Source of the DNA: Campylobacterales bacterium
GTDB lineage: Bacteria > Campylobacterota > Campylobacteria > Campylobacterales > Sulfurimonadaceae
Reading direction: 5' to 3'
DNA: 64,000 nt
NCBI GenBank assembly: GCA_026390115.1
Contig: JAPLGO010000009.1
Coordinates: forward strand, 1-64,000
Position numbers and translations under genes: made by a program. The notes beneath the pieces were generated by a model. The model saw only the letters and a list, made by a program, of their open reading frames with translations. It was not told the DNA's origin and searched no databases. Of this stretch, positions 1 to 12,102 are shown one piece after another; positions within the stretch are counted from its first letter, which is position 1; each line of letters begins with the position of its first letter.

Positions 1-1
1 A

Positions 2-169
2 AGAGGTGTCGAATTGGCAGAGGGAACAGTAAAAAGTTATTCCCAAAATGCTGCCAAAGCAGAGAAAATCATAGAAAATGTATCTAAAATCAATGAACTC
101 TCCAATAAGAGCGGACACAGCATAGATGTAATAAAAACAAGCGTTGACGAATTAACACGCATATTCTAG
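2..169 (+). CDS. Methyl-accepting chemotaxis protein, C-terminal fragment
   Basis: Only the last 55 codons lie in the window; the gene starts before base 1. The peptide (RGVELAEGTVKSY... to ...VDELTRIF) is a polar, Ala/Ser/Asn-rich amphipathic helix of the kind found at the end of the methyl-accepting signalling coiled coil. Such receptors signal to CheA/CheW at the inner membrane. The ligand cannot be deduced because the sensor domain is missing. It converges on the MotB-like gene, with a hairpin overlapping and following its stop. The family call is moderate because the diagnostic hairpin tip is outside the window. Confidence 0.6.
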   Translation, partial: RGVELAEGTVKSYSQNAAKAEKIIENVSKINELSNKSGHSIDVIKTSVDELTRIF

Positions 170-189
170 AGAGTTAATTATAACTCTCT
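168..189. terminator. Hairpin between convergent genes
   Basis: AGAGAGTTA and TAACTCTCT form a perfect 9-bp stem around a 4-nt loop, starting in the stop codon of the chemotaxis gene and followed by TTGTTATT. It lies between convergent genes and could serve both as a terminator. Confidence 0.55.
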
Positions 190-241
190 TGTTATTCCAA
201 AATTGTACAGTAGGAAATTAAATCTGTTTTTGAGTAAAGCT

Positions 242-1000
242 TCACTTTTCACTCAGCATTTCAGAAATTTCATTTATCGCCTCATCATTTTTTAGTCTGA
301 ATTTAATCTCTATTCTTCTGGATGCAAATTTGTCTTCAAGGCTGCTGTCGTTCATGTCATAAATCAAATCCGTATCTGATCTGCCGCTTGCGGCTATAAA
401 AACTTTTAAATCTTTCTCAAGTTTTGGCTGAAGCGTTAATATAAACTTCATAACTTCGAAAGCTCTTTTTTGAGAGAGTTCCAAATTATGAAGATACTCT
501 CCGTCACTGTTTGTATGCCCCTCTATAATTATTCTCTCTAAATTATCTCTTATCTCTTGCTCATTCATCATCACATCAATATATTCAGACAACACGCCCT
601 GAAGTGCCATCTTTGCATCACTTTTGAGTGTATATTCACCTTGGTCGAAAAGTATGTTTCCGGCAATACTGAGGGAGCCGTCTTTTGGATTGACGGCTAT
701 TTTGTTGCCTAGTTTGGTTCGTAACTTCTCTATTACCACTGCTTTTACGGATGTTAATTTGTTAATTGACTCTTTTGTCTGTTTAAGCTCTTCTCTTAAT
801 TTCTCTGCATCATTCTGTTTTTTTGCAGCCTCTTGAACAAGTTTTTCAATAGACTCTTTTTGAAGCTGAAGTTCGCTTGTCATATAGGAATATTTCATAA
901 CAACGACACCGACAACCAAGATAAATACAAAAAGTAATCCAGCCATCAAATCGGCATAAGAGATCCAGAAATTATTTTGAGAATCGTTAAGTTTTTTCAT
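242..1000 (-). CDS. MotB/ZorB-like OmpA-domain protein
   Basis: 252 aa. One N-terminal membrane helix (about residues 17-37) carries the MotB-type motif SYADLM, whose Asp (residue 17) is the expected proton-binding residue. A short coiled coil (about 40-95) follows, then an OmpA-like peptidoglycan-binding domain (about 110-240) with ILFDQGEYTLKSDAK and GHTNSDG. In this family the helix pairs with a MotA/ZorA partner and the OmpA domain anchors the stator to the cell wall. The gene follows the MotA-like gene with a 2-nt gap and is surely co-transcribed. Flagellar MotB, TolR-type and ZorB of Zorya antiphage systems are the relatives to weigh. No ZorC, ZorD or ZorE gene is next to it, so a defence role is unproven. 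Confidence 0.8.
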   Translation of the reverse strand: MKKLNDSQNNFWISYADLMAGLLFVFILVVGVVVMKYSYMTSELQLQKESIEKLVQEAAKKQNDAEKLREELKQTKESINKLTSVKAVVIEKLRTKLGNKIAVNPKDGSLSIAGNILFDQGEYTLKSDAKMALQGVLSEYIDVMMNEQEIRDNLERIIIEGHTNSDGEYLHNLELSQKRAFEVMKFILTLQPKLEKDLKVFIAASGRSDTDLIYDMNDSSLEDKFASRRIEIKFRLKNDEAINEISEMLSEK

Positions 1001-1002
1001 TC

Positions 1003-2850
1003 TTATTTCATTTCTTTTGCTTTGGATGTCGCATGTATCAATATATCCAGCTTTTCAAGAAGTTCTATATTGGAATCTTCCAAACTCTCTTCAAAAGATT
1101 TTACCGAGTCTATCATGCGTTCATTGCCATTTTTAATATTCAGGCTGTTTTGCTCAAAGGATTGGAGTGTATTTTCAATATTATCCTGAAACCTTGAGTA
1201 GAGCATTTCAAGTGAAGCAACTGATTTGTTAACCCCTTTCATCTGTTTTTCAGCTGTCTCAGAGTAAGCGTCATCAAGCCCATCGAGCAGCTTCAGCATT
1301 CCGTTTGAGAGGTCAAGCAACTTGTCGGACATGGAACCTATGCTTGTTTTTGCCTCGGCTAAATTGGTGCTAAATCCACCAAAAAAGTCGCTTAGTTCAT
1401 GCGTTTGCGAATTCAACTCAGTTAAAGATGTAGCCAAAATATTGGCAACTTTCGTGGATGATTCATTCTGTGAAACAATCAGTTTCTGGCTATTTTTAAA
1501 CACTTTACTTAACGATTCCAGCTCAGCAACATTGTGCGATAAAGTTTCATAGGAGTTGTTGGCTACATTAATTGATTTATCCAGTTTTTCACTTACGGTA
1601 ATTTGTTTATCCGTGCTGATTACAAGGCGGTCAACCAAATCATCCATTGCCTCCGAAACATGTAACAATCTTCCTGACACACCATCGATTGAAGATTGAG
1701 AGGTTCTAAAGTTATTTGTAGTAATTTCAAGGGTATGTGTAATATTTTCTGTCTGCATGTTAAAGGAAGATATTACCTTATCCAAGATTTCTGCAACTTC
1801 TTTAGATGACTCATTTTGGGATGTCATGGCATCATAATTCGATTGAAACAGTTGACTAAGGGATTGTAATTTATCTACATTATCAGATAAATTTGAATAG
1901 GATTGATTGGCTGCCGTAATTGAGAGATCTAATTTTTCGCTAATTGCTTCCTGCTTCTCTGTGATTGTTGAAAATTTTTCTACTACCGATTTATATGTTT
2001 TTCGTAGCTCTTCATGGAATACTCTATCTGCTTTTAATGTTTTGTAGAGCAATCCGGTCTGCACATTAATCGTATCATTGAGTTTTTGAATAAAGTCTGG
2101 GGAGAGCGACTGTTTTATTGTCTCTTGCAGACCGCGATTTAAGAGTTGCTGCTCTACAAACGTAGCTCTTTTAAGCTCCTCTTCGCTCCACAGCTTCTTC
2201 TCAAACACTTCCTTAATCTCTTGCAACTCTTTTTCTATAAAAGAGAACCCTTTTTTTTCAAAAAAGACCCACCAAAGTGACAAAAAAATTCCATAAATAG
2301 AGGCATAAAAAGCAGTTCCGACACCGCCGAGTAGTTTTGTTATCTCATGGTTTAAGGCATCCGCCGAGCCGGCACTAAAATCCGGCATGGAGAGAGCGAT
2401 ACTGATAAAAGTACCTAATATGCCCAAAGTCGGAAATGTTCCCGCCGCTACTGCAGCATAGTTATCGTTACGAAGTTTTTGTGAAAATCTGTCAAAAAAC
2501 TTATCCACTGAGCCGATAGCCTTTTTTTCTCCCATTAAAAGAGTAAGGTTCTCGTCAATATATTTAGAGACTTCCAATATAAGAGCTCTCTTAGTATTGT
2601 GAAAAGTACAGGTCGAATAACATGCATTATGTTTTACAAAAAAAGCAAAAACTGCATATATCACACCTATAATAAGAATAGAGTGCAGCTCCATCTGAAG
2701 AGGAATAATCCCCATGTAGGCAATCAAAACTATAAAAATCAAAAGCGTCGGGGCGGACATTATTTTAATTAAATTATCGATGCAATTTAATGTTTTTCCC
2801 TCTTGTTTTAACTGAAAAAATTTTTCTAAACTTTTTTTATTCATATTCAC
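1003..2850 (-). CDS. MotA/TolQ/ExbB-type channel with long coiled-coil tail (ZorA-like)
   Basis: 615 aa, far longer than flagellar MotA or ExbB. Membrane segments lie at about residues 31-50, 55-73, 136-155 and 174-196; the last two hold the channel-like stretches GTFPTLGILGTFISIAL and GGVGTAFYASIYGIFLSL. Everything after about residue 205 is predicted cytoplasmic coiled coil. It contains a tandem duplication: residues about 304-409 (SEKLDLSITAANQSY...) and 420-525 (SEKLDKSINVANNSY...) align with a 116-residue period. This architecture matches ZorA, whose tail protrudes into the cytoplasm. Only the MotB-like partner follows. A role in defence, motility or envelope energisation is open. Confidence 0.78.
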   Translation of the reverse strand: MNMNKKSLEKFFQLKQEGKTLNCIDNLIKIMSAPTLLIFIVLIAYMGIIPLQMELHSILIIGVIYAVFAFFVKHNACYSTCTFHNTKRALILEVSKYIDENLTLLMGEKKAIGSVDKFFDRFSQKLRNDNYAAVAAGTFPTLGILGTFISIALSMPDFSAGSADALNHEITKLLGGVGTAFYASIYGIFLSLWWVFFEKKGFSFIEKELQEIKEVFEKKLWSEEELKRATFVEQQLLNRGLQETIKQSLSPDFIQKLNDTINVQTGLLYKTLKADRVFHEELRKTYKSVVEKFSTITEKQEAISEKLDLSITAANQSYSNLSDNVDKLQSLSQLFQSNYDAMTSQNESSKEVAEILDKVISSFNMQTENITHTLEITTNNFRTSQSSIDGVSGRLLHVSEAMDDLVDRLVISTDKQITVSEKLDKSINVANNSYETLSHNVAELESLSKVFKNSQKLIVSQNESSTKVANILATSLTELNSQTHELSDFFGGFSTNLAEAKTSIGSMSDKLLDLSNGMLKLLDGLDDAYSETAEKQMKGVNKSVASLEMLYSRFQDNIENTLQSFEQNSLNIKNGNERMIDSVKSFEESLEDSNIELLEKLDILIHATSKAKEMK

Positions 2851-2927
2851 TCCTCATATGGCTATTTGTACATTTCTATTTTTTATTTGATATGATAACG
2901 ATTCTAAACTGCATATTGGGACACATC

Positions 2928-3182
2928 ATGAAAGCTGTAATCATAATTCTATTTTTTGAAGTTATAACTTTAAATCTCTATGCCCAAATAAAGTGGATTC
3001 CTATTGAACCAATAGCGCCTATCGCACCGATTGCACCTATAAACATGAATGAACCTAGCAAGCGTGAGAACAACACATCCAAGATGAAACCTGCAAATCA
3101 ACTGCTTGAAAATGTAAAAACTATTCAATACCTGCTTGACAGTACTCGCGATAGAGATGAATCAGATAGAGAGGGTGAATAG
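2928..3182 (+). CDS. Small exported Pro/Ile/Ala-repeat protein
   Basis: 84 aa, not recognised. I start it at the ATG at 2928 rather than the ORF-track start at 2790, because MKAVIIILFFEVITLNLYAQ is a standard signal peptide whereas the upstream codons overlap the 5' end of the ZorA-like gene. After the likely cleavage site comes a short repeat, IPIEPIAPIAPIAPI, then a charged tail rich in Asp, Glu and Arg. It is divergent from the ZorA-like gene and its 3' end overlaps bcp by 21 bp in convergent orientation. Function unknown. Confidence 0.5.
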   Translation: MKAVIIILFFEVITLNLYAQIKWIPIEPIAPIAPIAPINMNEPSKRENNTSKMKPANQLLENVKTIQYLLDSTRDRDESDREGE

Positions 3183-3647
3183 GGGTTGAACTCTTTGCAA
3201 TTCCTCTTTTACTATCTCCACATGCCCTTTAACTTTTACACTCTTCCATAGAGCTTTTATAACTACGTTTGGGTCAATAATCAGAGTTGTGCGAACGATT
3301 CCCATGTACTCTTTGCCGTAATTTTTTTTCAGCTGCCATACGCCGTAAAGCTGCATCATGTTTGTCTCTTCATCACTCAACAGCGTAATATTCAACTCTT
3401 GTTTTTCTATAAAATTGCGGTGTTTTTTTGTACTGTCTGCACTTACGCCGATGACGATGGCATCAAGTTCTGAAAAATCCGGCGCTGCTTCGCTGAACTC
3501 ACATGCCTCTGTTGTGCATCCCGGAGTGCTGTCTTTTGGATAAAAGTATAAAACTATCCACTTGCCTCTTAAATCTCTTAGGCATATCTCTATATCGTCT
3601 TGGTTTGGTAAGCAAAATTCTGGTGCTTGGCTGCCGATTTCTAACAT
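3162..3647 (-). CDS. bcp: Thiol peroxidase / peroxiredoxin Bcp
   Basis: 161 aa, normal length for Bcp/PrxQ. The thioredoxin fold carries FYPKDSTPGCTTEACEF, with the peroxidatic Cys at residue 44 and the resolving Cys five residues later at 49, the atypical 2-Cys arrangement. It reduces hydroperoxides in the cytoplasm using thioredoxin. The next gene downstream on this strand is the ZorA-like one, but a plus-strand small gene overlaps the 3' end, so it probably ends its own transcript. It is the last of a run of minus-strand genes beginning near ubiA. Confidence 0.93.
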   Translation of the reverse strand: MLEIGSQAPEFCLPNQDDIEICLRDLRGKWIVLYFYPKDSTPGCTTEACEFSEAAPDFSELDAIVIGVSADSTKKHRNFIEKQELNITLLSDEETNMMQLYGVWQLKKNYGKEYMGIVRTTLIIDPNVVIKALWKSVKVKGHVEIVKEELQRVQPLFTLSI

Positions 3648-3665
3648 TTAATTTCCTTTAATTGT

Positions 3666-4130
3666 TTAATATATAAAGAGCAACATGTAAACCCAGATGC
3701 CTGTAAGTGAAGTGAGAACGACACCTGTAAATGTCAAAAGACCCGCTTTTTTATGGTTGTGTGTTGCTAAAAAAATTTTTATCATAGCGAATGTGGTTAC
3801 CCACAAAATAAGAGTGGCTACCGATATTGCAATATGAAACATTAGCACGATAAAAACATAATTGTGTGATGCGGTAGTTCCTTCTATGAAATATTTATAA
3901 CCGCCACCCAGTCTCACTCCATACTCAAAATAAGTAAGCACTATAACCGAAAAAGCAAAGATTAATATTTGTAAAAAAGCATGATATTTGTACTTTTTAA
4001 TTCTCGCCAAATAAATAGCAGCCGACACCAAAAGAGGCAAAAGTGCCACAATAAGCGTAACCATGTCCATGAAAAATGGCGCTCTTGTTCCTAAAAAACC
4101 GTGATGAAACATATATTCCATGTTGCTCAT
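3666..4130 (-). CDS. DUF420 membrane protein
   Basis: 154 aa with four predicted membrane helices (about residues 20-42, 50-68, 88-114, 128-152). The N-terminal FLGTRAPFFMDMVTLIVALLP and the later histidines fit the DUF420 family, members of which are linked to haem-copper oxidase assembly. No oxidase gene is visible here, so that role is inferred from family knowledge only. It lies 3 nt downstream of the DedA gene and 18 nt upstream of bcp. Confidence 0.75.
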   Translation of the reverse strand: MSNMEYMFHHGFLGTRAPFFMDMVTLIVALLPLLVSAAIYLARIKKYKYHAFLQILIFAFSVIVLTYFEYGVRLGGGYKYFIEGTTASHNYVFIVLMFHIAISVATLILWVTTFAMIKIFLATHNHKKAGLLTFTGVVLTSLTGIWVYMLLFIY

Positions 4131-4133
4131 ATT

Positions 4134-4757
4134 TTAATCCTTTATAATCTTAATTTTAGCTACTTTTGCTTTTTGATAGTACGCATACATCGCGCCTAAA
4201 ATAACAATTGCAATCACAAGCACAATGATTATTTGGTGCAAATATTGGTTTATCAACTCTTGATTCTCGCCTATAAAATATCCGAGCATGACAAGGATAA
4301 AAGCCCAAATTGCCGAACCTAGTGTTGTGTAAATTGAAAAGACGAGCAAATTCATCCGGGCAAGTCCGGCAGGGATGGAGATAAGATGGCGAATGACTGG
4401 CAATAATCTTCCTATAAAAGTAGAGATATGCCCATGTTTTTCAAAGAACCCGTCCATTTTTGCCAAGGCATCTTCATTTACGAAAAAATATTTTCCATAT
4501 TTCTTGAGTATTCTTCGCCCAAGAGAGAGTGCTAAGTAATAGTTTACAAAGGCACCGGCGAGTGAGCCTGCCGTAGCACTTACGATTATCAAAGATATAT
4601 TCATCTGCCCCTGCGAAGCCAAATATCCGGCTGGAATTAAAACTATTTCACTTGGGAGAGGAATAAATGAACTCTCGATGCTCATGAGGATAAATATCCC
4701 CCAGTAGCCCCAATCAAAGATTAAATCAACTAAATTTTGTGCCAACTCTTTTATCAT
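4134..4757 (-). CDS. DedA family membrane protein
   Basis: 207 aa. DedA features: ESSFIPLPSEIVLIPAGYLA near residues 28-47, and the GRLLPVIRHLISIPAGLARM segment at about 116-135. Multiple membrane helices follow. DedA proteins are thought to translocate polyprenyl-phosphate or phospholipid across the inner membrane. The stop of murG overlaps its start (ATGA), so the two are translationally coupled, which would suit a lipid-carrier recycling role beside lipid II synthesis. That link is inference. Confidence 0.88.
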   Translation of the reverse strand: MIKELAQNLVDLIFDWGYWGIFILMSIESSFIPLPSEIVLIPAGYLASQGQMNISLIIVSATAGSLAGAFVNYYLALSLGRRILKKYGKYFFVNEDALAKMDGFFEKHGHISTFIGRLLPVIRHLISIPAGLARMNLLVFSIYTTLGSAIWAFILVMLGYFIGENQELINQYLHQIIIVLVIAIVILGAMYAYYQKAKVAKIKIIKD

Positions 4758-5773
4758 TTAATCGCATCCTCTACATCTTTTATCATCTTTTTTGCTACAT
4801 CTTTTTTGGAGTATTCTAAAAGTCTTTGGCTTTTATCTTCGAGCTTTTCATCCAAAATGGAGAAAATTTTTTCTCTCAAACTCTCGCCTTCTCGCTCGCA
4901 CCAGCCAAGGTTGTTCTGAACTATAAACTGTGCATTATAAAACTGATGGTCGCCCGCAGCATACGGATAGGGAATAAAGAGAGTCGGCACTCCACTGACA
5001 CAGAGTTCCCAGAGGGTACTTGCACCCGAGCGGCTCACTGCCAAGTCGGCATGTGAAATTAACTCTGGAAGCTCTTTTGTAAAGCCGTACAACTCCGCTT
5101 CGACATCTAAATTTTCATACTCTTTTTTAACTCTCTCATAATCACCCTCGCCCGCTTGATGGATAATTTTTATTCCTCGATTTTGAAGTTCTTTTGCCAC
5201 GCTTAGTGCCAATTCATTGATAGCTTTTGCCCCTTGAGAGCCGCCTAAGAAAATTATAGTTTTAAACTCTTTTCTCACTCTGGCATTTCTGTAGAAACTC
5301 TCATTTACGGGATAACCTTGAATAACAGAGTTTTTGTCATACGCCGATATAAATCTTTTCGCGTAGGGTTTTAGCAGAGAATTCAGCCTTCCCTCCACTG
5401 CATTTTGCTCATGGATAAAAAGAGGTATAAAACGGCTTAGAGAGGCGAATGACGCCGGTGCTGCCGAAAATCCGCCGACACTGTAAACCGCCTCGATTGC
5501 ATGTTTTTTTAAAATTCCTCTTGAAGCAAAAAAAGCTTTAAGGATTTTATAGAGTGCCTTGAACTTTTCAAAACCTTTTTGATTTACAACACCCGTAGTT
5601 TCCAAAAAATAGACAGCAGAAAATAGGCTGTTATGCTCAAAATATTTTTTATCCTGACCTGAAGCCGAACCTATAAATATTACCTCATGTCCATATTCCA
5701 CGGCGCTCTCAACCAAGGATTGTGCTATCATCAGATGACCGCCAGTTCCGCCACCCGTAATACAAAGTTTCAT
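4754..5773 (-). CDS. murG: UDP-GlcNAc:lipid I N-acetylglucosaminyltransferase MurG
   Basis: MurG makes lipid II from lipid I at the inner face of the membrane. The N-terminal glycine-rich loop TGGGTGGHL and the C-terminal sugar-nucleotide region (GGSQGAKAINELA; SRSGASTLWELCVSGVPTLFIPYPYAAGDHQFYNA) are clear. The ORF opens at 5785 with MERRMKLCIT; I prefer the second Met at 5773, which puts the P-loop near residue 8 as in the family. Length is then 339 aa, slightly short for MurG but complete. It follows ftsW, the usual division-cluster pairing. Confidence 0.95.
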   Translation of the reverse strand: MKLCITGGGTGGHLMIAQSLVESAVEYGHEVIFIGSASGQDKKYFEHNSLFSAVYFLETTGVVNQKGFEKFKALYKILKAFFASRGILKKHAIEAVYSVGGFSAAPASFASLSRFIPLFIHEQNAVEGRLNSLLKPYAKRFISAYDKNSVIQGYPVNESFYRNARVRKEFKTIIFLGGSQGAKAINELALSVAKELQNRGIKIIHQAGEGDYERVKKEYENLDVEAELYGFTKELPELISHADLAVSRSGASTLWELCVSGVPTLFIPYPYAAGDHQFYNAQFIVQNNLGWCEREGESLREKIFSILDEKLEDKSQRLLEYSKKDVAKKMIKDVEDAIK

Positions 5774-5798
5774 TCTTCTCTCCATTGCAACATGCCCG

Positions 5799-6962
5799 CT
5801 ACTGCGGCAAAACTTTTTTTGATGCCATAATTACCATGCCGACACCGATAGATGCTGCCAACATCGTAGAACCACCGTAGCTTATAAAAGGAACAGAGAT
5901 ACCCTTAATCGGTGTGATTCCACTGATTCCATAGGCATTTACCAAAAATGCAAAAGAGAGAAGAAGCCCTATTCCCAAACTAAAAAGATAAACACTTCTG
6001 TCATTGGAGCGGTTTGCAACCCTGAATATCCTCATCAACATCCACATAAATATAAAAACAACACCCACAACACCGACAAAACCAAATTCTTCGGCAATTC
6101 CCGCCAAAACAAAGTCTGTATGAACTTCACTCAAAAAGCCAAGCTTAAAGGTTCCGTTAGCCAATCCGACTCCAAAAATTCCCCCATTATGGATAGCATT
6201 GAGAGAGTGTCCAATCTGGTAAGGTTCAACCTCTGTGGGAATTCTCAACTTCTCTGCCATGGCAGCCGGAAAAAGTTCCAAGACACTGTTTTGAGCCAAT
6301 GCCCACCAAGATTTTATTCTGGTAATTCTATGCTCTGCCGCTAAAATAAAAAAGACAAAAAGCATTAAAACGACGGATAAAATAGTTAAGAAGAATCTAA
6401 AACTGCTTCCCGCAAACATCAACATAAAAAGGAGCGTAAGCCCGAGCACTACGACCTGCCCCAAATCATTCTGCACAAAAGCTATAATAAACATGGCAAC
6501 AACAAAAACAAGAGCGTAAGGCGTAAAGCGCTTCAATTCACTAAATATTCCCATGCCGTCATGGTGACCCAATTTCCTTGAAAAACTCCAGGCAAGAAAA
6601 TAGACAAAACCGATTTTAAAGAACTCAACGGGAGCTAAAGAGAATCCTCCGATTTTTATCCATCTTTTTGCTCCGCCTACGGCAGAAACCAGAAATTCTG
6701 GCAAAAACGGCATGGCTATCATCAAAATTGTTGAAACAAAGAAGAGTGTAAACCCTATAATTTTCAGCCATTTGTCAGGTTCTAGCTGAGATAACATCCA
6801 GATAATCACAATACTGAAAAGTCCAAAAGCAACCTGTCTGATAGCAAAATGAAATTCATTTACGCCAAAGAGCAGTGTTATATATTCGGATAAAGTATAT
6901 GAAAGGGCTATTCCAATACCGATAAGTGTCGAAACTAATGCAAAGAGAGTTCTATCTGCCAT
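5799..6962 (-). CDS. ftsW: FtsW, SEDS peptidoglycan glycosyltransferase
   Basis: 387 aa, about ten membrane helices. SEDS signatures include VNDLGQ-like QNDLGQVVVLGLTLL, GLANGTFKLGFLSEVHTDFVLAGIAEEFGF and the C-terminal PIKGISVPFISYGGS. It polymerises lipid II at the septum with FtsI. The neighbouring murG favours FtsW over its paralogue RodA. The gene is preceded by a membrane-anchored protein of unknown function with a 9-nt gap. Confidence 0.93.
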   Translation of the reverse strand: MADRTLFALVSTLIGIGIALSYTLSEYITLLFGVNEFHFAIRQVAFGLFSIVIIWMLSQLEPDKWLKIIGFTLFFVSTILMIAMPFLPEFLVSAVGGAKRWIKIGGFSLAPVEFFKIGFVYFLAWSFSRKLGHHDGMGIFSELKRFTPYALVFVVAMFIIAFVQNDLGQVVVLGLTLLFMLMFAGSSFRFFLTILSVVLMLFVFFILAAEHRITRIKSWWALAQNSVLELFPAAMAEKLRIPTEVEPYQIGHSLNAIHNGGIFGVGLANGTFKLGFLSEVHTDFVLAGIAEEFGFVGVVGVVFIFMWMLMRIFRVANRSNDRSVYLFSLGIGLLLSFAFLVNAYGISGITPIKGISVPFISYGGSTMLAASIGVGMVIMASKKVLPQ

Positions 6963-6971
6963 AAATCCAAA

Positions 6972-7520
6972 CTACTTAATTTTGTTGATTTTTAAAACAA
7001 ATTCAACTTCGGGTTGTGATAGGTGCAACTCTTTAGAGATGGTCTCTAGGGATACACCCTGCTTGAAAAGTGAAATAATTTTTTCATCATCGTTTGCATG
7101 GATTGAGGAGGGAATAGAAAACTGTTTTACTCCGCTTTCCAAAGATGAAATCCTTGAATCGACCTGCAGATCTATTGAATGAATAGTCTCCTGCATATGT
7201 TTCAGCCCGATTGTTAGAGGCTGAATCATATCATAGACGCTTCTTTCTATCTCTTGATAAATCTCCTCATCACTCATGCCTCTTGTGTTTTGCTGCAAAC
7301 TTTTTTGAGACTCTGTAATGTTCTTCTTGAGGTAAAATATTTCTCTTTGCAGCTCATCTACCACAGTAGCGATAGAGCGGATATTTCTACTGTAATCAGA
7401 ATCTTTGCTTGATACATAATAGATAAGGTAGAAAATCACAACTACCATCGCCCCTGCAATATACTCTGTGAGACTAAAACTGCTCATAAAGCCGCTAATA
7501 TTCAAAGATTCTAATTTCAT
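6972..7520 (-). CDS. Membrane-anchored coiled-coil protein with C-terminal HTH-like end
   Basis: 182 aa, function unknown. A single membrane helix lies at about residues 18-38 (EYIAGAMVVVIFYLIYYV). A cytoplasmic coiled coil (about 48-130) follows. The last 35 residues (SLFKQGVSLETISKELHLSQPEVEFVLKI) resemble a helix-turn-helix of the kind that ends several membrane-anchored DUF proteins. The start overlaps the preceding gene by 4 nt and it sits immediately upstream of ftsW, so a link with envelope growth is possible but not shown. Confidence 0.6.
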   Translation of the reverse strand: MKLESLNISGFMSSFSLTEYIAGAMVVVIFYLIYYVSSKDSDYSRNIRSIATVVDELQREIFYLKKNITESQKSLQQNTRGMSDEEIYQEIERSVYDMIQPLTIGLKHMQETIHSIDLQVDSRISSLESGVKQFSIPSSIHANDDEKIISLFKQGVSLETISKELHLSQPEVEFVLKINKIK

Positions 7521-8038
7521 TTTTTACTTTCTTTTGCTTCGCGGATGAGCAATCGCTCTCTTGATGTAAGGTAGGTTGCCCATTCTGCTTCATCTCTTTC
7601 ATGTGTTCTGACAATAGCAGCCAATGTTGGTGAGAGTGCTTCAAAAAAAATACCGATATCCCTTTTTGGATGAATTGGCATCTCAACTCTTCCATAATAC
7701 TGCACACCAACGGACAAAAGAGGCGCATCTAAATTAAAGTGTTCAAAGCCGATAGATTCGATTCGCCCCTTCATGATAAGCGGAACTCTTGAGGGTTCCT
7801 CATGTTTTATAAATCTCTCAAGGGCATCTATTTTGTTATGGAGTTCAACAAGAAGATTTAATAAAACAGGGTCTGTTTCATGTGTATCTCCCCTTGCTTT
7901 AGCATGTTTGACCCACTGATTTATAGGGCTGTTATCGGACTCAATCAGCTTATGGTACTCACCTTCATACGCCTCCGCTTCACTTGTTGCTTCGCTAAAA
8001 CTGATATTTATTTGTGCCGGAACTAAACGGGGATTCAT
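7517..8038 (-). CDS. Conserved protein of unknown function
   Basis: 173 aa, soluble. The N-terminal half is acidic and helical; the second half (about residues 85-150) looks beta-rich (RVPLIMKGRIESIGFEHFNLDAP), reminiscent of a PilZ-like barrel, but the RxxxR and DxSxxG signatures are not visible. It overlaps the prenyltransferase gene (ATGA) and the following coiled-coil gene by 4 nt each, so all three should be made together. I do not assign a function. Confidence 0.55.
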   Translation of the reverse strand: MNPRLVPAQINISFSEATSEAEAYEGEYHKLIESDNSPINQWVKHAKARGDTHETDPVLLNLLVELHNKIDALERFIKHEEPSRVPLIMKGRIESIGFEHFNLDAPLLSVGVQYYGRVEMPIHPKRDIGIFFEALSPTLAAIVRTHERDEAEWATYLTSRERLLIREAKESKK

Positions 8039-8898
8039 GCACTCACCTTATCTAAAATAATAAAAATCAAAAATGCAACACCCAAGTAACCATTCACCGT
8101 AAAAAATGCACGGTCTATTTTTGTAAAATCTTTTCGTACCAGAAAGTGTTCATAGCCCAGCATAACTGCACTTGCAACCACCGCGGCAAAGGCAAAAAAG
8201 CCAAGCCCTGAACTCCAAACAAAAAGAGCCCAAAAGAGTACGCTCAGCATGTGAAAAAGCGATGAGATAAAAAGGGTAGCCTCAGCCCCGTAGCGTGATG
8301 GAATGGAGTGGAGATTATTTTTTTTATCAAATTCTATATCTTGAAGTGAGTAGAGCAGATCAAACCCTGCAACCCAAAAAATCACACCCAAACTCAGCAA
8401 AACTGACCAGAGCGATACTTCTCCGCTCACGGCAACAACCCCAGCAATGGGTGCAAGTCCGAGTGAAATACCAAGTACAACATGTGCTAAAGATGAAAAT
8501 CTTTTAAAGTAGGAGTAACTCCCCAAAATAAAAAGAATCGGAATACTAAGAGCAAAAGCCAATTTGTTTATCATAAATGCCACAGCTACAAAAATAAAGG
8601 CATTTGTAACGATAAAAATCATAATACTGGCACTGTCTAATCTTCCATCCACATTCGGTCTGCCTGAAGTTCTAGGGTTAAGTGCGTCTATGTCTCTATC
8701 TGCGTATCTGTTGAGTCCCATGGCGAAGTTTCTTGCACTGACGGCTGCCAAAGCACCCATAAAAAGAAGCCAGAATCCAAACCATCCGTTTGCTGCAACT
8801 ATCATTGCTATAAAAATAAAAGGGAGAGAGAATATAGAGTGTTCAAACATAACCAACTCGTTAAAATCTCTTAATTTTTTAATATATCTTTGCACCAT
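8035..8898 (-). CDS. UbiA-family prenyltransferase (menaquinone, MqnP-like)
   Basis: 287 aa, about eight membrane helices. The two Asp-rich prenyl-diphosphate sites are present: NRYADRDIDALNPRTSGRP near residues 62-80 and YSLQDIEFDKKN near 184-195. UbiA enzymes attach a polyprenyl tail to an aromatic ring. Campylobacterota make menaquinone through the futalosine route, where MqnP does this step, so MqnP is more likely than 4-hydroxybenzoate prenyltransferase; the substrate is inferred. It heads a minus-strand series and is divergent from miaA. Confidence 0.85.
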   Translation of the reverse strand: MVQRYIKKLRDFNELVMFEHSIFSLPFIFIAMIVAANGWFGFWLLFMGALAAVSARNFAMGLNRYADRDIDALNPRTSGRPNVDGRLDSASIMIFIVTNAFIFVAVAFMINKLAFALSIPILFILGSYSYFKRFSSLAHVVLGISLGLAPIAGVVAVSGEVSLWSVLLSLGVIFWVAGFDLLYSLQDIEFDKKNNLHSIPSRYGAEATLFISSLFHMLSVLFWALFVWSSGLGFFAFAAVVASAVMLGYEHFLVRKDFTKIDRAFFTVNGYLGVAFLIFIILDKVSA

Positions 8899-8951
8899 TT
8901 TACCTTACCCAATAATTGAGGCTTATTCTATCCAAAGTTGTTTTAAAATGA

Positions 8952-8957
8952 TATAAT
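8952..8957 (+). promoter_or_regulatory. -10 element of the miaA promoter
   Basis: GATATAAT lies 6 nt before the miaA ATG. No -35 box is obvious at the right distance, which is usual for sigma70 promoters of this phylum. The transcript would have almost no leader if this is used. Confidence 0.4.
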
Positions 8958-8963
8958 TTCCGG

Positions 8964-9869
8964 ATGAACAATGAGATAAAACAACTGGCAATTATAGGTG
9001 CAACGGCGTCTGGAAAGAGTGATTTAGCAATAAAAATTGCACAAAAGACAGACGCATATATTCTCTCAATCGACTCGCTCAGCATCTACAAAGAGATTGA
9101 CATAGTCTCTGCAAAACCCTCCCCTGACGAGCTCTCTTTGATAAAACATTTTGGCATAGATGTTTTACGCCCAGATGAGCATTTCAATGTTGATATATTT
9201 ATGGATTTATATAAAAAAGTACTTTTCATCTGCCAGGAAGAGGGCAAAAATCTTGTTATAGTCGGCGGCACCTCCTTTTATCTGAAGTCACTCATGCAGG
9301 GCTTGTCAGAGCTTCCAAAAATCACAAAAGAGGTCTCTTCTCTTGTGGAAACAAAACTTGCAAATTTAGAGAGTGCACATGCCTTTTTATCTGCACTTGA
9401 CCCGCACTATATGAAAAATATTACACCAAATGACAGCTACAGAATCGAGAAGATGCTTCTGATTTATGAGGCTTCAAATCTCACCCCCTCGCAGTGGTTT
9501 GAAGCAAATCCTCCAAAACCGATTATTGAGAATTTAGCCATTTACAACATTGAAGTCGAAAGAGCTATTTTGAGAGAAAGAATTTCAAAAAGAACGAACA
9601 AGATGCTGCAATATGGTCTGATAGATGAAGTTTGTTATTTAGAACAAAAATACACGAGGCTTCCCAATGCCATGGGTTCCATAGGGATAGTAGAAGTTTT
9701 AGAGTTTTTAGATGGCAAAACAACCAAAGAAAAGATGCTTGAAAATATCTCCATGCACACGGCACAACTGGCAAAAAGACAGCAGACTTTCAACCGCACA
9801 CAATTTGAAACTATTACCTCAGCACCGCTTGAAACACTTGAAAGAATTATACTGACTGCTCAGTTTTAA
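8964..9869 (+). CDS. miaA: tRNA dimethylallyltransferase MiaA
   Basis: 301 aa. The P-loop GATASGKS is at residues 12-19, followed by DSLSIYKEIDIVSAKPS, VGGTSFYLKSLMQG and the NDSYRIEKMLLIYEAS helix, all diagnostic. It transfers a dimethylallyl group to A37 of tRNAs reading UNN codons. The isoprenoid donor depends on the pathway in which ispG, two genes downstream, takes part. It is divergent from the prenyltransferase gene. Confidence 0.96.
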   Translation: MNNEIKQLAIIGATASGKSDLAIKIAQKTDAYILSIDSLSIYKEIDIVSAKPSPDELSLIKHFGIDVLRPDEHFNVDIFMDLYKKVLFICQEEGKNLVIVGGTSFYLKSLMQGLSELPKITKEVSSLVETKLANLESAHAFLSALDPHYMKNITPNDSYRIEKMLLIYEASNLTPSQWFEANPPKPIIENLAIYNIEVERAILRERISKRTNKMLQYGLIDEVCYLEQKYTRLPNAMGSIGIVEVLEFLDGKTTKEKMLENISMHTAQLAKRQQTFNRTQFETITSAPLETLERIILTAQF

Positions 9870-9906
9870 GATACAATCTCAATATATCGATTATGGAATA
9901 ATTTGA

Positions 9907-12102
9907 ATGATTAAAATAACAAACTTTGCAGGTAATTTTTGGGGCGGTACTGCTGCCATGCTTGTTGCTATGCCTGCTGCTATCGCTTTTGGTGTTACAA
10001 TTTATGCGACCATAGGCGGGCATTTTGCTGCATACGGTGCAATTGCAGGTATCTTAGGTGTTGCCGCAATCGGAATTGTTGCCTCGCTCTTAGGCGGAAC
10101 ACAAAGGCTCATATCTGCTCCAAGCGCTCCAGCGGCAGCTGTTTTATCGGCTTTTGCAATGGAGCATATCTCAAAAGGAGTTCATGCAGACAGTGTGTTT
10201 GTAATGCTCATGGTAATCGCTCTTATAGCAGCCATTATACAAGTGCTTTTTGGGGTTGCAGGACTTGGGAGACTTATAAAATATATGCCATTTCCTGTTG
10301 TAAGCGGTTATTTAAGTGGGGTGGGACTGTATATTGTTGCCGCACAAACACCTAACTTTCTGGGTTTATCCCAAGGTGAACATTTTTTAGAATCAATTCA
10401 ATCCCCTGCACTATGGCAGTGGGAAAGTTTTATTGTTGGAGCGGTAACAATTGCAACTATGATATATGGGGAAAAGCTTTTCAAGGCTATTCCGGCTGTT
10501 ATTATGGCATTAGCCATGGGTATTGGAACCTATTTTTTACTAGGTCTGCTGAAACCTTCTCTATTTGAGCCTAACAATATTTTTATCATAGGAACGCTCG
10601 GCGGAAATGATGGAATCGATTTTTTCAAGATGATGTCATGGCGTTTTAATACACTTTTGGAACTCTCTTGGGAGAATATCGGAATGCTTTTTTTTCCTGC
10701 GCTCACCCTTGCCGCACTTCTCTCAATCGATACACTCAAAACATGCGTTATCCTTGACTCTATGACCCACTCTTTTCATAATTCTAACAAAGAGTTAATT
10801 GCTCAAGGCTCGGGAAACCTTCTCTCTGTCCTTATCGGTGGAATGCCCGGTTCGGGAACCATGGGTGCAACTATGGTAAATATCTCAAGCGGTGCAACAA
10901 CGCGATTATCTGGACTTATTGAAGGAGTTATGGCAGTCGTTGCTTTTGTTCTTTTGGGTACATTTATCGCGTGGATTCCTGTTGCCTCACTCGCTGCCAT
11001 TTTGATTGTAATCGGTTTTAGGATGATTGACACCCATAGTATTCAACTCTTAAAATCTAAAAAAACAGCACTTGATTTTTTTATTATCATTGCCGTTGCA
11101 GTGACTGCACTTTTTGTAAGTCTTATTGCAGCCGCCGGAGTTGGTTTGTTGCTGGCAATTGCTCTTTATATTACACAACAGATAGGGGCTTCCGTCGTGT
11201 ATCGTCATCTTGATGGAAATGATGTCCGAAGCAAGGTTATTCGCAGTGAAGAGGAGTCAGTTATCTTAACGACAAAGGGCGGAAATTTTTCTGTTTATGA
11301 GCTGCATGGAAGCCTTTTTTTTGGAACTGCCAATCAACTCTATACGATGCTGCGTGATGATCTGAAAGAGAAAAAATACATCATCATGGATATGAAACGA
11401 GTGCAAACCGTTGATTTAACGGCAGCACATATTTTGCTACAGATTAAGGATATTCTGCATGACAACAACGGCTATCTTTTACTGAGCAGACTGCCGCACA
11501 AACTCCCGACAGGGGATGATATGGAGAGCTACTTTAACCATGTCGGGCTCTTGAAACACTTAAGCCCTATAAAAGTTTTTGATGATTTAGAGTACGCAAT
11601 TGAGTGGGTTGAAGAGAGAGTTCTTAGTGAAAATCGCTCAGCAATTACAGAGGAGCTACCCTATGATCTTAAAGATTTTTCTCTTTTAGGGCACAGAAAA
11701 CAGGAGACAATAGATGAAATACAAGACTCATTTGAATGCAGAACTTTCAAAAAGGGAGAGATTATTTTTAAGCAGGGAGATTTAGCGGGAGAGCTTTACT
11801 TAATCCGTCGAGGGCTGGTTCGGATTGTTCTTAGAATTTCAGAACATAGTATAGTCCATTTAAGCACCTTGGGACAGGGTAATTTTTTTGGAGAGTTCTC
11901 TTTTTTAGAGGGAAGCCCTCAATACAGTGAAGCTTTCGCAACCATGGATACCGATCTGTTTGTCATATCCCGTGAAGCATTTGACGAATTTTCTCAGCGA
12001 CACCACAGAGCCTCTTTTCGTTTTATGCAGAGCCTCGCTACCGTATTGGCAGAAAGACTCCACCTCACAAGTTCCGAATTGGGTGCCGAGTATGATGTTT
12101 AG
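9907..12102 (+). CDS. SulP anion transporter with STAS and cyclic-nucleotide-binding domains
   Basis: 731 aa, three modules. Residues about 1-430 are the SulP membrane domain (GGTQRLISAPSAPAAAVLSA; GGMPGSGTMGATMVNISSGATTRLSGLIEG). Residues about 455-560 form a STAS domain (MDMKRVQTVDLTAAHILLQIKD). Residues about 605-720 form a cAMP-receptor-like domain (FKKGEIIFKQGDLAGELYLIRRG; GNFFGEFSFLEGSPQYSEAFA). Family members move sulfate, bicarbonate or other anions; the substrate is not readable. The C-terminal domain suggests gating by a small ligand. It stands alone between miaA and ispG. Confidence 0.9.
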   Translation: MIKITNFAGNFWGGTAAMLVAMPAAIAFGVTIYATIGGHFAAYGAIAGILGVAAIGIVASLLGGTQRLISAPSAPAAAVLSAFAMEHISKGVHADSVFVMLMVIALIAAIIQVLFGVAGLGRLIKYMPFPVVSGYLSGVGLYIVAAQTPNFLGLSQGEHFLESIQSPALWQWESFIVGAVTIATMIYGEKLFKAIPAVIMALAMGIGTYFLLGLLKPSLFEPNNIFIIGTLGGNDGIDFFKMMSWRFNTLLELSWENIGMLFFPALTLAALLSIDTLKTCVILDSMTHSFHNSNKELIAQGSGNLLSVLIGGMPGSGTMGATMVNISSGATTRLSGLIEGVMAVVAFVLLGTFIAWIPVASLAAILIVIGFRMIDTHSIQLLKSKKTALDFFIIIAVAVTALFVSLIAAAGVGLLLAIALYITQQIGASVVYRHLDGNDVRSKVIRSEEESVILTTKGGNFSVYELHGSLFFGTANQLYTMLRDDLKEKKYIIMDMKRVQTVDLTAAHILLQIKDILHDNNGYLLLSRLPHKLPTGDDMESYFNHVGLLKHLSPIKVFDDLEYAIEWVEERVLSENRSAITEELPYDLKDFSLLGHRKQETIDEIQDSFECRTFKKGEIIFKQGDLAGELYLIRRGLVRIVLRISEHSIVHLSTLGQGNFFGEFSFLEGSPQYSEAFATMDTDLFVISREAFDEFSQRHHRASFRFMQSLATVLAERLHLTSSELGAEYDV

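Follow-up and report, generated by a model that had tools for sequence, protein, structure and literature searches.

Positions 242–2850 of the window, i.e. the whole 64,000 nt stretch of DNA that was analyzed, hold two intact genes on the reverse strand. A zorA-like gene is transcribed first and is followed, after an intergenic gap of two bases, by a zorB-like gene. The window starts at the end of its contig (contig C15 of G000, the genome of the window), thus the chemoreceptor gene at this end is only partly seen. The features of the region are:

1–168, forward strand: part of a chemoreceptor gene, convergent with the zorB-like gene
168–189, forward strand: terminator-like hairpin between the chemoreceptor gene and the zorB-like gene, a consensus match of a kind found in numbers not above those in shuffled sequences
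242–1000, reverse strand: zorB-like gene, 252 aa
1003–2844, reverse strand: zorA-like gene, 613 aa from the ATG at 2844 (615 aa from the GTG at 2850)
1282–1614, reverse strand: second copy of the tail repeat, residues 413–523 counted from the GTG at 2850
1630–1962, reverse strand: first copy of the tail repeat, residues 297–407 counted from the GTG at 2850
3162–3647, reverse strand: bcp-like peroxiredoxin gene, a syntenic neighbor given as context only and not as a part of the machine

The ZorA-like protein displays a motor domain and a helical tail of ~385 residues. It has a match to the MotA_ExbB domain (PF01618, E = 1.3e-8) at residues 126–213. The ATG at 2844 is probably the start codon rather than the GTG at 2850, because the sequence AGGAG is found just 5′ of it; the resulting chain length of 613 aa is also that of the nearest orthologue. 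The ZorB-like protein has one transmembrane helix, which carries the sequence FWISYADLM with the motor aspartate Asp17, a helical linker, and a C-terminal OmpA-like, putatively peptidoglycan-binding domain (OmpA match at residues 117–214, E = 2.7e-9). A preliminary description of this DNA, made from the sequence alone, had proposed a MotA/ExbB-type protein with a partner that contains SYADLM and an OmpA domain, and both open reading frames are indeed present at these positions and on this strand. In alignments, ZorB Asp17 and ZorA Thr147 and Ser184 match the ion-path residues of Zorya. Across the family discussed below, Thr147 of ZorA is invariant, and Asp17 of ZorB and Ser184 of ZorA are conserved in at least 90% of members. 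The AlphaFold model of the ZorB-like protein has a pLDDT of 86.7. That of the ZorA-like monomer shows about 75–91 in the motor part and low values in the tail, where the prediction is helical from end to end but at a confidence too weak to interpret.

The two copies of the tail repeat (residues 297–407 and 413–523) align without gaps at a period of 116 residues and are about 41% identical by manual count. The Smith-Waterman score at the best split of the tail is 204. On the coarser split grid that was used for the shuffle control the score is 194, compared with 49 ± 7 and a maximum of 78 in 200 shuffles of the tail. The tandem repeat of period 116 that had been noted in the long tail is therefore real, its score being far above those of shuffled tails. 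It is present in all five members of the subclade of the window pair (here termed window-type), the weakest case being locus L040 with a score of 89 against a maximum of 72, and is not a general trait of the wider effector-free ZorAB family.

The window pair belongs to the ZorAB lineage, whether inside or beside Zorya, since sequence comparison, structure search and a concatenated tree agree. With the PADLOC models the pair gives 198 bits for ZorB1 and ~50 bits for several ZorA models (51 bits for ZorA), and all 29 members of the ZorB family that were tested match PADLOC ZorB models. The NCBIfam Zorya models also match, but at scores far below their cut-offs (at most 30 bits for ZorA against 100–500, and 74 bits for ZorB1 against 400). 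ZorAB chains top the lists when the PDB is searched with family profiles. In Foldseek searches, the top five PDB matches of the ZorB-like model are ZorB chains, and the six best matches of the ZorA-like model are ZorA chains (E from 2e-4 to 3e-3), whereas TolQ, ExbB and unrelated helical proteins only appear at E-values of 0.2 or higher.

The phylogenetic comparison with MotAB, TolQR, ExbBD and ZorAB that had been suggested at the outset does not place the pair inside MotAB or ExbBD, the result that had been named in advance as refuting the proposal. A quick ZorA tree separates the family together with Zorya ZorA from MotA, TolQ and ExbB with a support of 94, and the family and the Zorya ZorA proteins each form one group (88 and 85). 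In the concatenated tree of the ZorA motor domain and ZorB, the family members form a single clade (96/99), which is joined to Zorya with the Mot proteins outside (100/99). Deep branches of this tree are long; by AU tests, a single Zorya clade is neither rejected nor proven, and the same applies to a position of the window-type outside the remaining family. The trees and Foldseek thus reject a MotAB or ExbBD identity. The match to PF01618 is what an ordinary ExbBD or TolQR energizer with an unusual tail would give, but this explanation is very improbable: separate ExbB and TolQ genes are present in the same genome, the ZorB-like protein has an OmpA domain, and tree and Foldseek place the pair with ZorAB.

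Among characterized systems, Zorya type I ZorAB (PDB 8qyd, 8vvn; PMC11890865) shares with the window pair the motor domain, the conserved aspartate and threonine/serine residues, the long ZorA tail, the OmpA-like peptidoglycan-binding domain of ZorB and the tight zorA-zorB pairing. The window pair differs in that no zorC or zorD is near, in its distinct clade, in its chromosomal housekeeping locus, in the tail duplication, and in an extra conserved N-terminal segment of ZorA at about residues 20–75. Zorya type II ZorAB (PDB 8vvi, from Sulfuricurvum kujiense; PMC11890865) has the same motor build and is likewise found in Campylobacterales. However it is accompanied by zorE, an HNH nickase gene, and has a smaller ZorA; the window pair has no zorE and falls in a separate clade. 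Flagellar MotAB is of the same superfamily, with a 5:2 architecture by homology, but differs from the window pair in tree position, structure search, tail and locus, and the genome has its own MotAB.

The preliminary description had reported a chemoreceptor gene next door and had listed a motility motor among the possible functions. The neighboring gene is present, convergent and partial; as a clue to function it carries little weight, since the slot is variable in relatives, where it is occupied by rpsB, a GGDEF protein gene or a porin-like gene. The chemoreceptor was accordingly rejected as a functional partner. A stator linked to motility or chemotaxis would be in keeping with the MotA/MotB-type fold and with the receptor gene fragment at 1–168. 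It is nevertheless improbable: genes for MotAB are found separately in this genome, a MotAB identity is ruled out by the tree and by the structure search, and the receptor gene is convergent and not a common neighbor in relatives.

The window pair lies where a murG-ftsW locus ends, next to bcp, which is upstream of zorA; in two relatives (L038 and L039) bcp abuts or overlaps zorA. No gene for ZorC, ZorD, ZorE, ZorF, ZorG or another effector is found among the open reading frames next to the window pair. The earlier statement that Zorya effectors are missing nearby is therefore correct, the end of the chemoreceptor gene being downstream and bcp upstream. There is no Rfam match in window positions 1–12000. 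A small open reading frame at 2928–3182 on the forward strand, divergent from zorA, encodes a secreted proline-rich peptide, which among window-type loci is shared only by L037.

The window-type subclade comprises five genomes (G000, G123, G034, G067 and G103) out of 135 genomes of the genus. In four of the five, zorAB follows murG-ftsW-bcp and there are no effectors (the L037 sequence ends inside zorB). In L038, zorAB is found exactly between bcp and rpsB. In other Sulfurimonas bcp is followed directly by the rpsB region, i.e. an empty site, or by a porin-like gene. Compared with the orthologues in G123, which are 94–95% identical, dN/dS is 0.073 for zorA, 0.073 for the zorA tail alone and 0.025 for zorB; among relatives it ranges over 0.03–0.15. 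The window pair is under strong purifying selection. The absence of ZorC and ZorE could also mean that the pair is left over from a Zorya system that was lost and is itself in decay, but the genes are intact, the motor residues are conserved and the dN/dS values among relatives are low. Decay is rejected by this selection test and is an extremely unlikely explanation.

The fifth window-type locus, L040 in G103, is different. Here genes for an SNF2 helicase (956 aa), zorA, zorB and a 415 aa protein are consecutive. The 415 aa protein displays a divergent C-terminal EH signature and matches PADLOC ZorC1 with E = 2.9e-4, PF15611 with E = 0.0058, which is below the cut-off, and a profile made here from five ZorC sequences with E = 4.3e-4. 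An hhalign comparison to four ZorC proteins gives E = 5.6e-5 and a probability of 66%, and the motif VEYIDVGNATYLY ... HRGSW lines up with known ZorC. When compared directly with two ZorC proteins by BLAST it yielded no usable match, and the link was found by profile comparisons only. No convincing homologue was found elsewhere in the genus sample, in the order sample or in plasmids. With fair but not full confidence, the 415 aa protein appears to be a ZorC homologue, and the G103 locus may be described as Zorya I-like. The wider region (L040:2435–16034, on G103:C98) resembles a defence island and contains genes for an FRG protein, a DrmD/ZorD-like SNF2 helicase, the window-type zorAB, the divergent ZorC, an AAA ATPase and a PcfJ-like protein.

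Inspection of other Sulfurimonas neighborhoods, also suggested in the preliminary description, shows four of five window-type loci free of effectors and that of G103 Zorya I-like. Because the G103 member lies in such a locus, a defence role for the window-type is possible. The effectors may have been gained in G103 or lost in the other members. A count of the changes along the tree favors an effector-free family with a gain in G103, but only weakly so because of horizontal exchange. Of the earlier idea of a stripped Zorya relative, the relationship is supported by the nearest families, the solved structures, the tree and G103, whereas the stripping, i.e. loss of effectors, is plausible but the direction of change is not established.

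The pair could accordingly be a Zorya defence module whose effectors have been lost or moved to another place, and which remains protective either by itself or together with the products of other loci. The SNF2 helicase, zorA, zorB and ZorC-like protein of L040, with the FRG protein and AAA ATPase nearby, are consistent with this. The rarity of the window-type subclade (5 of 135 genus genomes) counts against a housekeeping function. Effectors elsewhere in the genome could also act in trans. However, four of the five window-type pairs are in one housekeeping locus without effectors, and neither ZorC (PF15611) nor ZorE has a match anywhere in G000. In Zorya itself, deletion of the other components is reported to abolish protection (PMC11890865). 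Such a defence module is considered less likely than the reading given below, but it is the main alternative to it and has to be taken seriously.

The distribution of the family bears on this question. Of the 398 Campylobacterales genomes in the sample, 185 have a ZorA relative, usually a single one, and they represent 30 of 85 genera; some of the lowest-scoring matches, few in number, may be true Zorya or fragments. In the genus sample a ZorA relative is found in 38 of 135 genomes. In comparison, ZorC (PF15611) is above cut-off in only one of the 398 genomes, which lacks the family, and ZorE-like genes are found in 11. Two genomes (G211 and G411) have both a ZorE-like gene and a family pair, but on different contigs. 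Both effectors are thus uncommon, and their occurrence does not follow that of the family. A ZorA query found no match in 50,697 phage records. A ZorB query gave 24 weak plasmid matches, and the four that were inspected show gene orders of zorABC plus helicase or of zorABE type and are true Zorya.

Family members outside the window-type are also effector-free. They have 27–36% aa identity to the window ZorA and about 38–51% to the window ZorB, but ZorA is usually shorter (mostly 356–456 aa), ZorB is longer (316–491 aa), and there is no tail duplication. The window-type combines an extended cytoplasmic tail with a short linker in the periplasm, and most other members show the opposite. ZorA and ZorB lengths are inversely related (Spearman −0.42, p 0.008, for 39 pairs not corrected for relatedness). 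G000 itself has a second effector-free pair of the shorter type (L006:10505–13414 on G000:C16; ZorA 386 aa, ZorB 371 aa). It is downstream of a MORN-repeat protein gene and near a split RND pump, an arrangement that recurs in other Sulfurimonas. In this genus the shorter type often has genes for a split RND pump, a membrane-fusion protein and a MORN-repeat protein nearby, or it follows genes for two secreted proteins.

In a family with small genomes, presumably Campylobacteraceae, the pair comes after nth, a PpiC-type gene (peb4) and fba. This order presumably corresponds to Cj0595–Cj0597 of C. jejuni, and from gene order we take Cj0598–Cj0599 to be the probable orthologues. Very little has been published on these two: Cj0598 is listed as hypothetical in one paper, and Cj0599 is called a “major outer membrane protein” in another, a label that is not trusted here. 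The cj0595-cj0596-cj0597 neighborhood and a putative cj0596-cj0597 transcript have been mentioned (PMC2782263). PADLOC has relaxed “other” classes (PMC8565338), which would probably flag effector-free pairs. No description of an effector-free Campylobacterales ZorAB family was found in the literature searched, which included only a minority of subscription papers and preprints.

The most likely reading, held with moderate confidence, is that the window pair is an ion-driven motor of the ZorAB lineage without Zorya effectors, which probably serves a housekeeping or envelope function by way of a client whose gene lies elsewhere. This view rests on the conservation of the pair, on purifying selection, on the position in a housekeeping locus, and on the wide distribution of the family without ZorC or ZorE. 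A new envelope machine, another possibility named in the preliminary description, would be compatible with the data. By homology, the inner membrane would contain two ZorB-like helices at the center of five ZorA-like subunits, and the OmpA-like domains of ZorB would grip peptidoglycan. Ion flow past ZorB Asp17 and the ring of ZorA Thr147 and Ser184 may turn ZorA, and with it the long five-helix cytoplasmic tail, which the 116-residue duplication would lengthen. For Zorya it has been proposed that ZorB senses peptidoglycan and opens the channel, and that the ZorA rod is turned to recruit nucleases (PMC11890865). The nucleases recruited in Zorya are not encoded at this locus. The most parsimonious view is therefore that the motor, in the service of the cell itself, signals or acts on the state of the envelope, via a client that is not encoded adjacent to it.

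To our knowledge, the one role described for ZorAB is that of sensor and motor within an anti-phage system. An effector-free relative with a wide distribution would mean that this type of motor has another job, and would offer a route to study the conversion between a cellular motor and a defence system. If the family is real in this sense, matches to ZorA or ZorB profiles alone would not mean defence. More tentatively, it is possible that Campylobacterales keep, by vertical descent, a widespread effector-free ZorAB motor for envelope housekeeping, and that one Sulfurimonas lineage has crossed to or from a Zorya-like defence operon. Such a crossing would give insight into the recruitment or domestication of a defence motor.

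Several other arrangements were observed. Six genomes encode candidate partners directly 5′ of zorAB in an operon-like array (L042:8511–11570, L043, L044 and L049–L051): two secreted proteins without an assigned family, the first of about 340 aa and the second, rich in repeats and similar to apolipoproteins, of about 290 aa. Long open frames hinted at a zorA-zorB fusion by stop codon read-through; this was rejected, as about a third of 40 pairs are in frame, which is the chance expectation. The IMG/VR contig L203 has a complete Zorya I (ZorA, ZorB, an EH-type ZorC and an SNF2 ZorD) shortly downstream of apparent cas1 and cas2, and although filed as viral this contig is more likely bacterial. 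L100:6146–7120 (G178) encodes a ZorB-family protein without the motor aspartate (FWLSFAGLM) and on a long branch, possibly a motor-dead version. One Campylobacterales genome (G455) has two tandem ZorAB-like pairs at L139:1266–5359, and the first ZorB of these is shortened.
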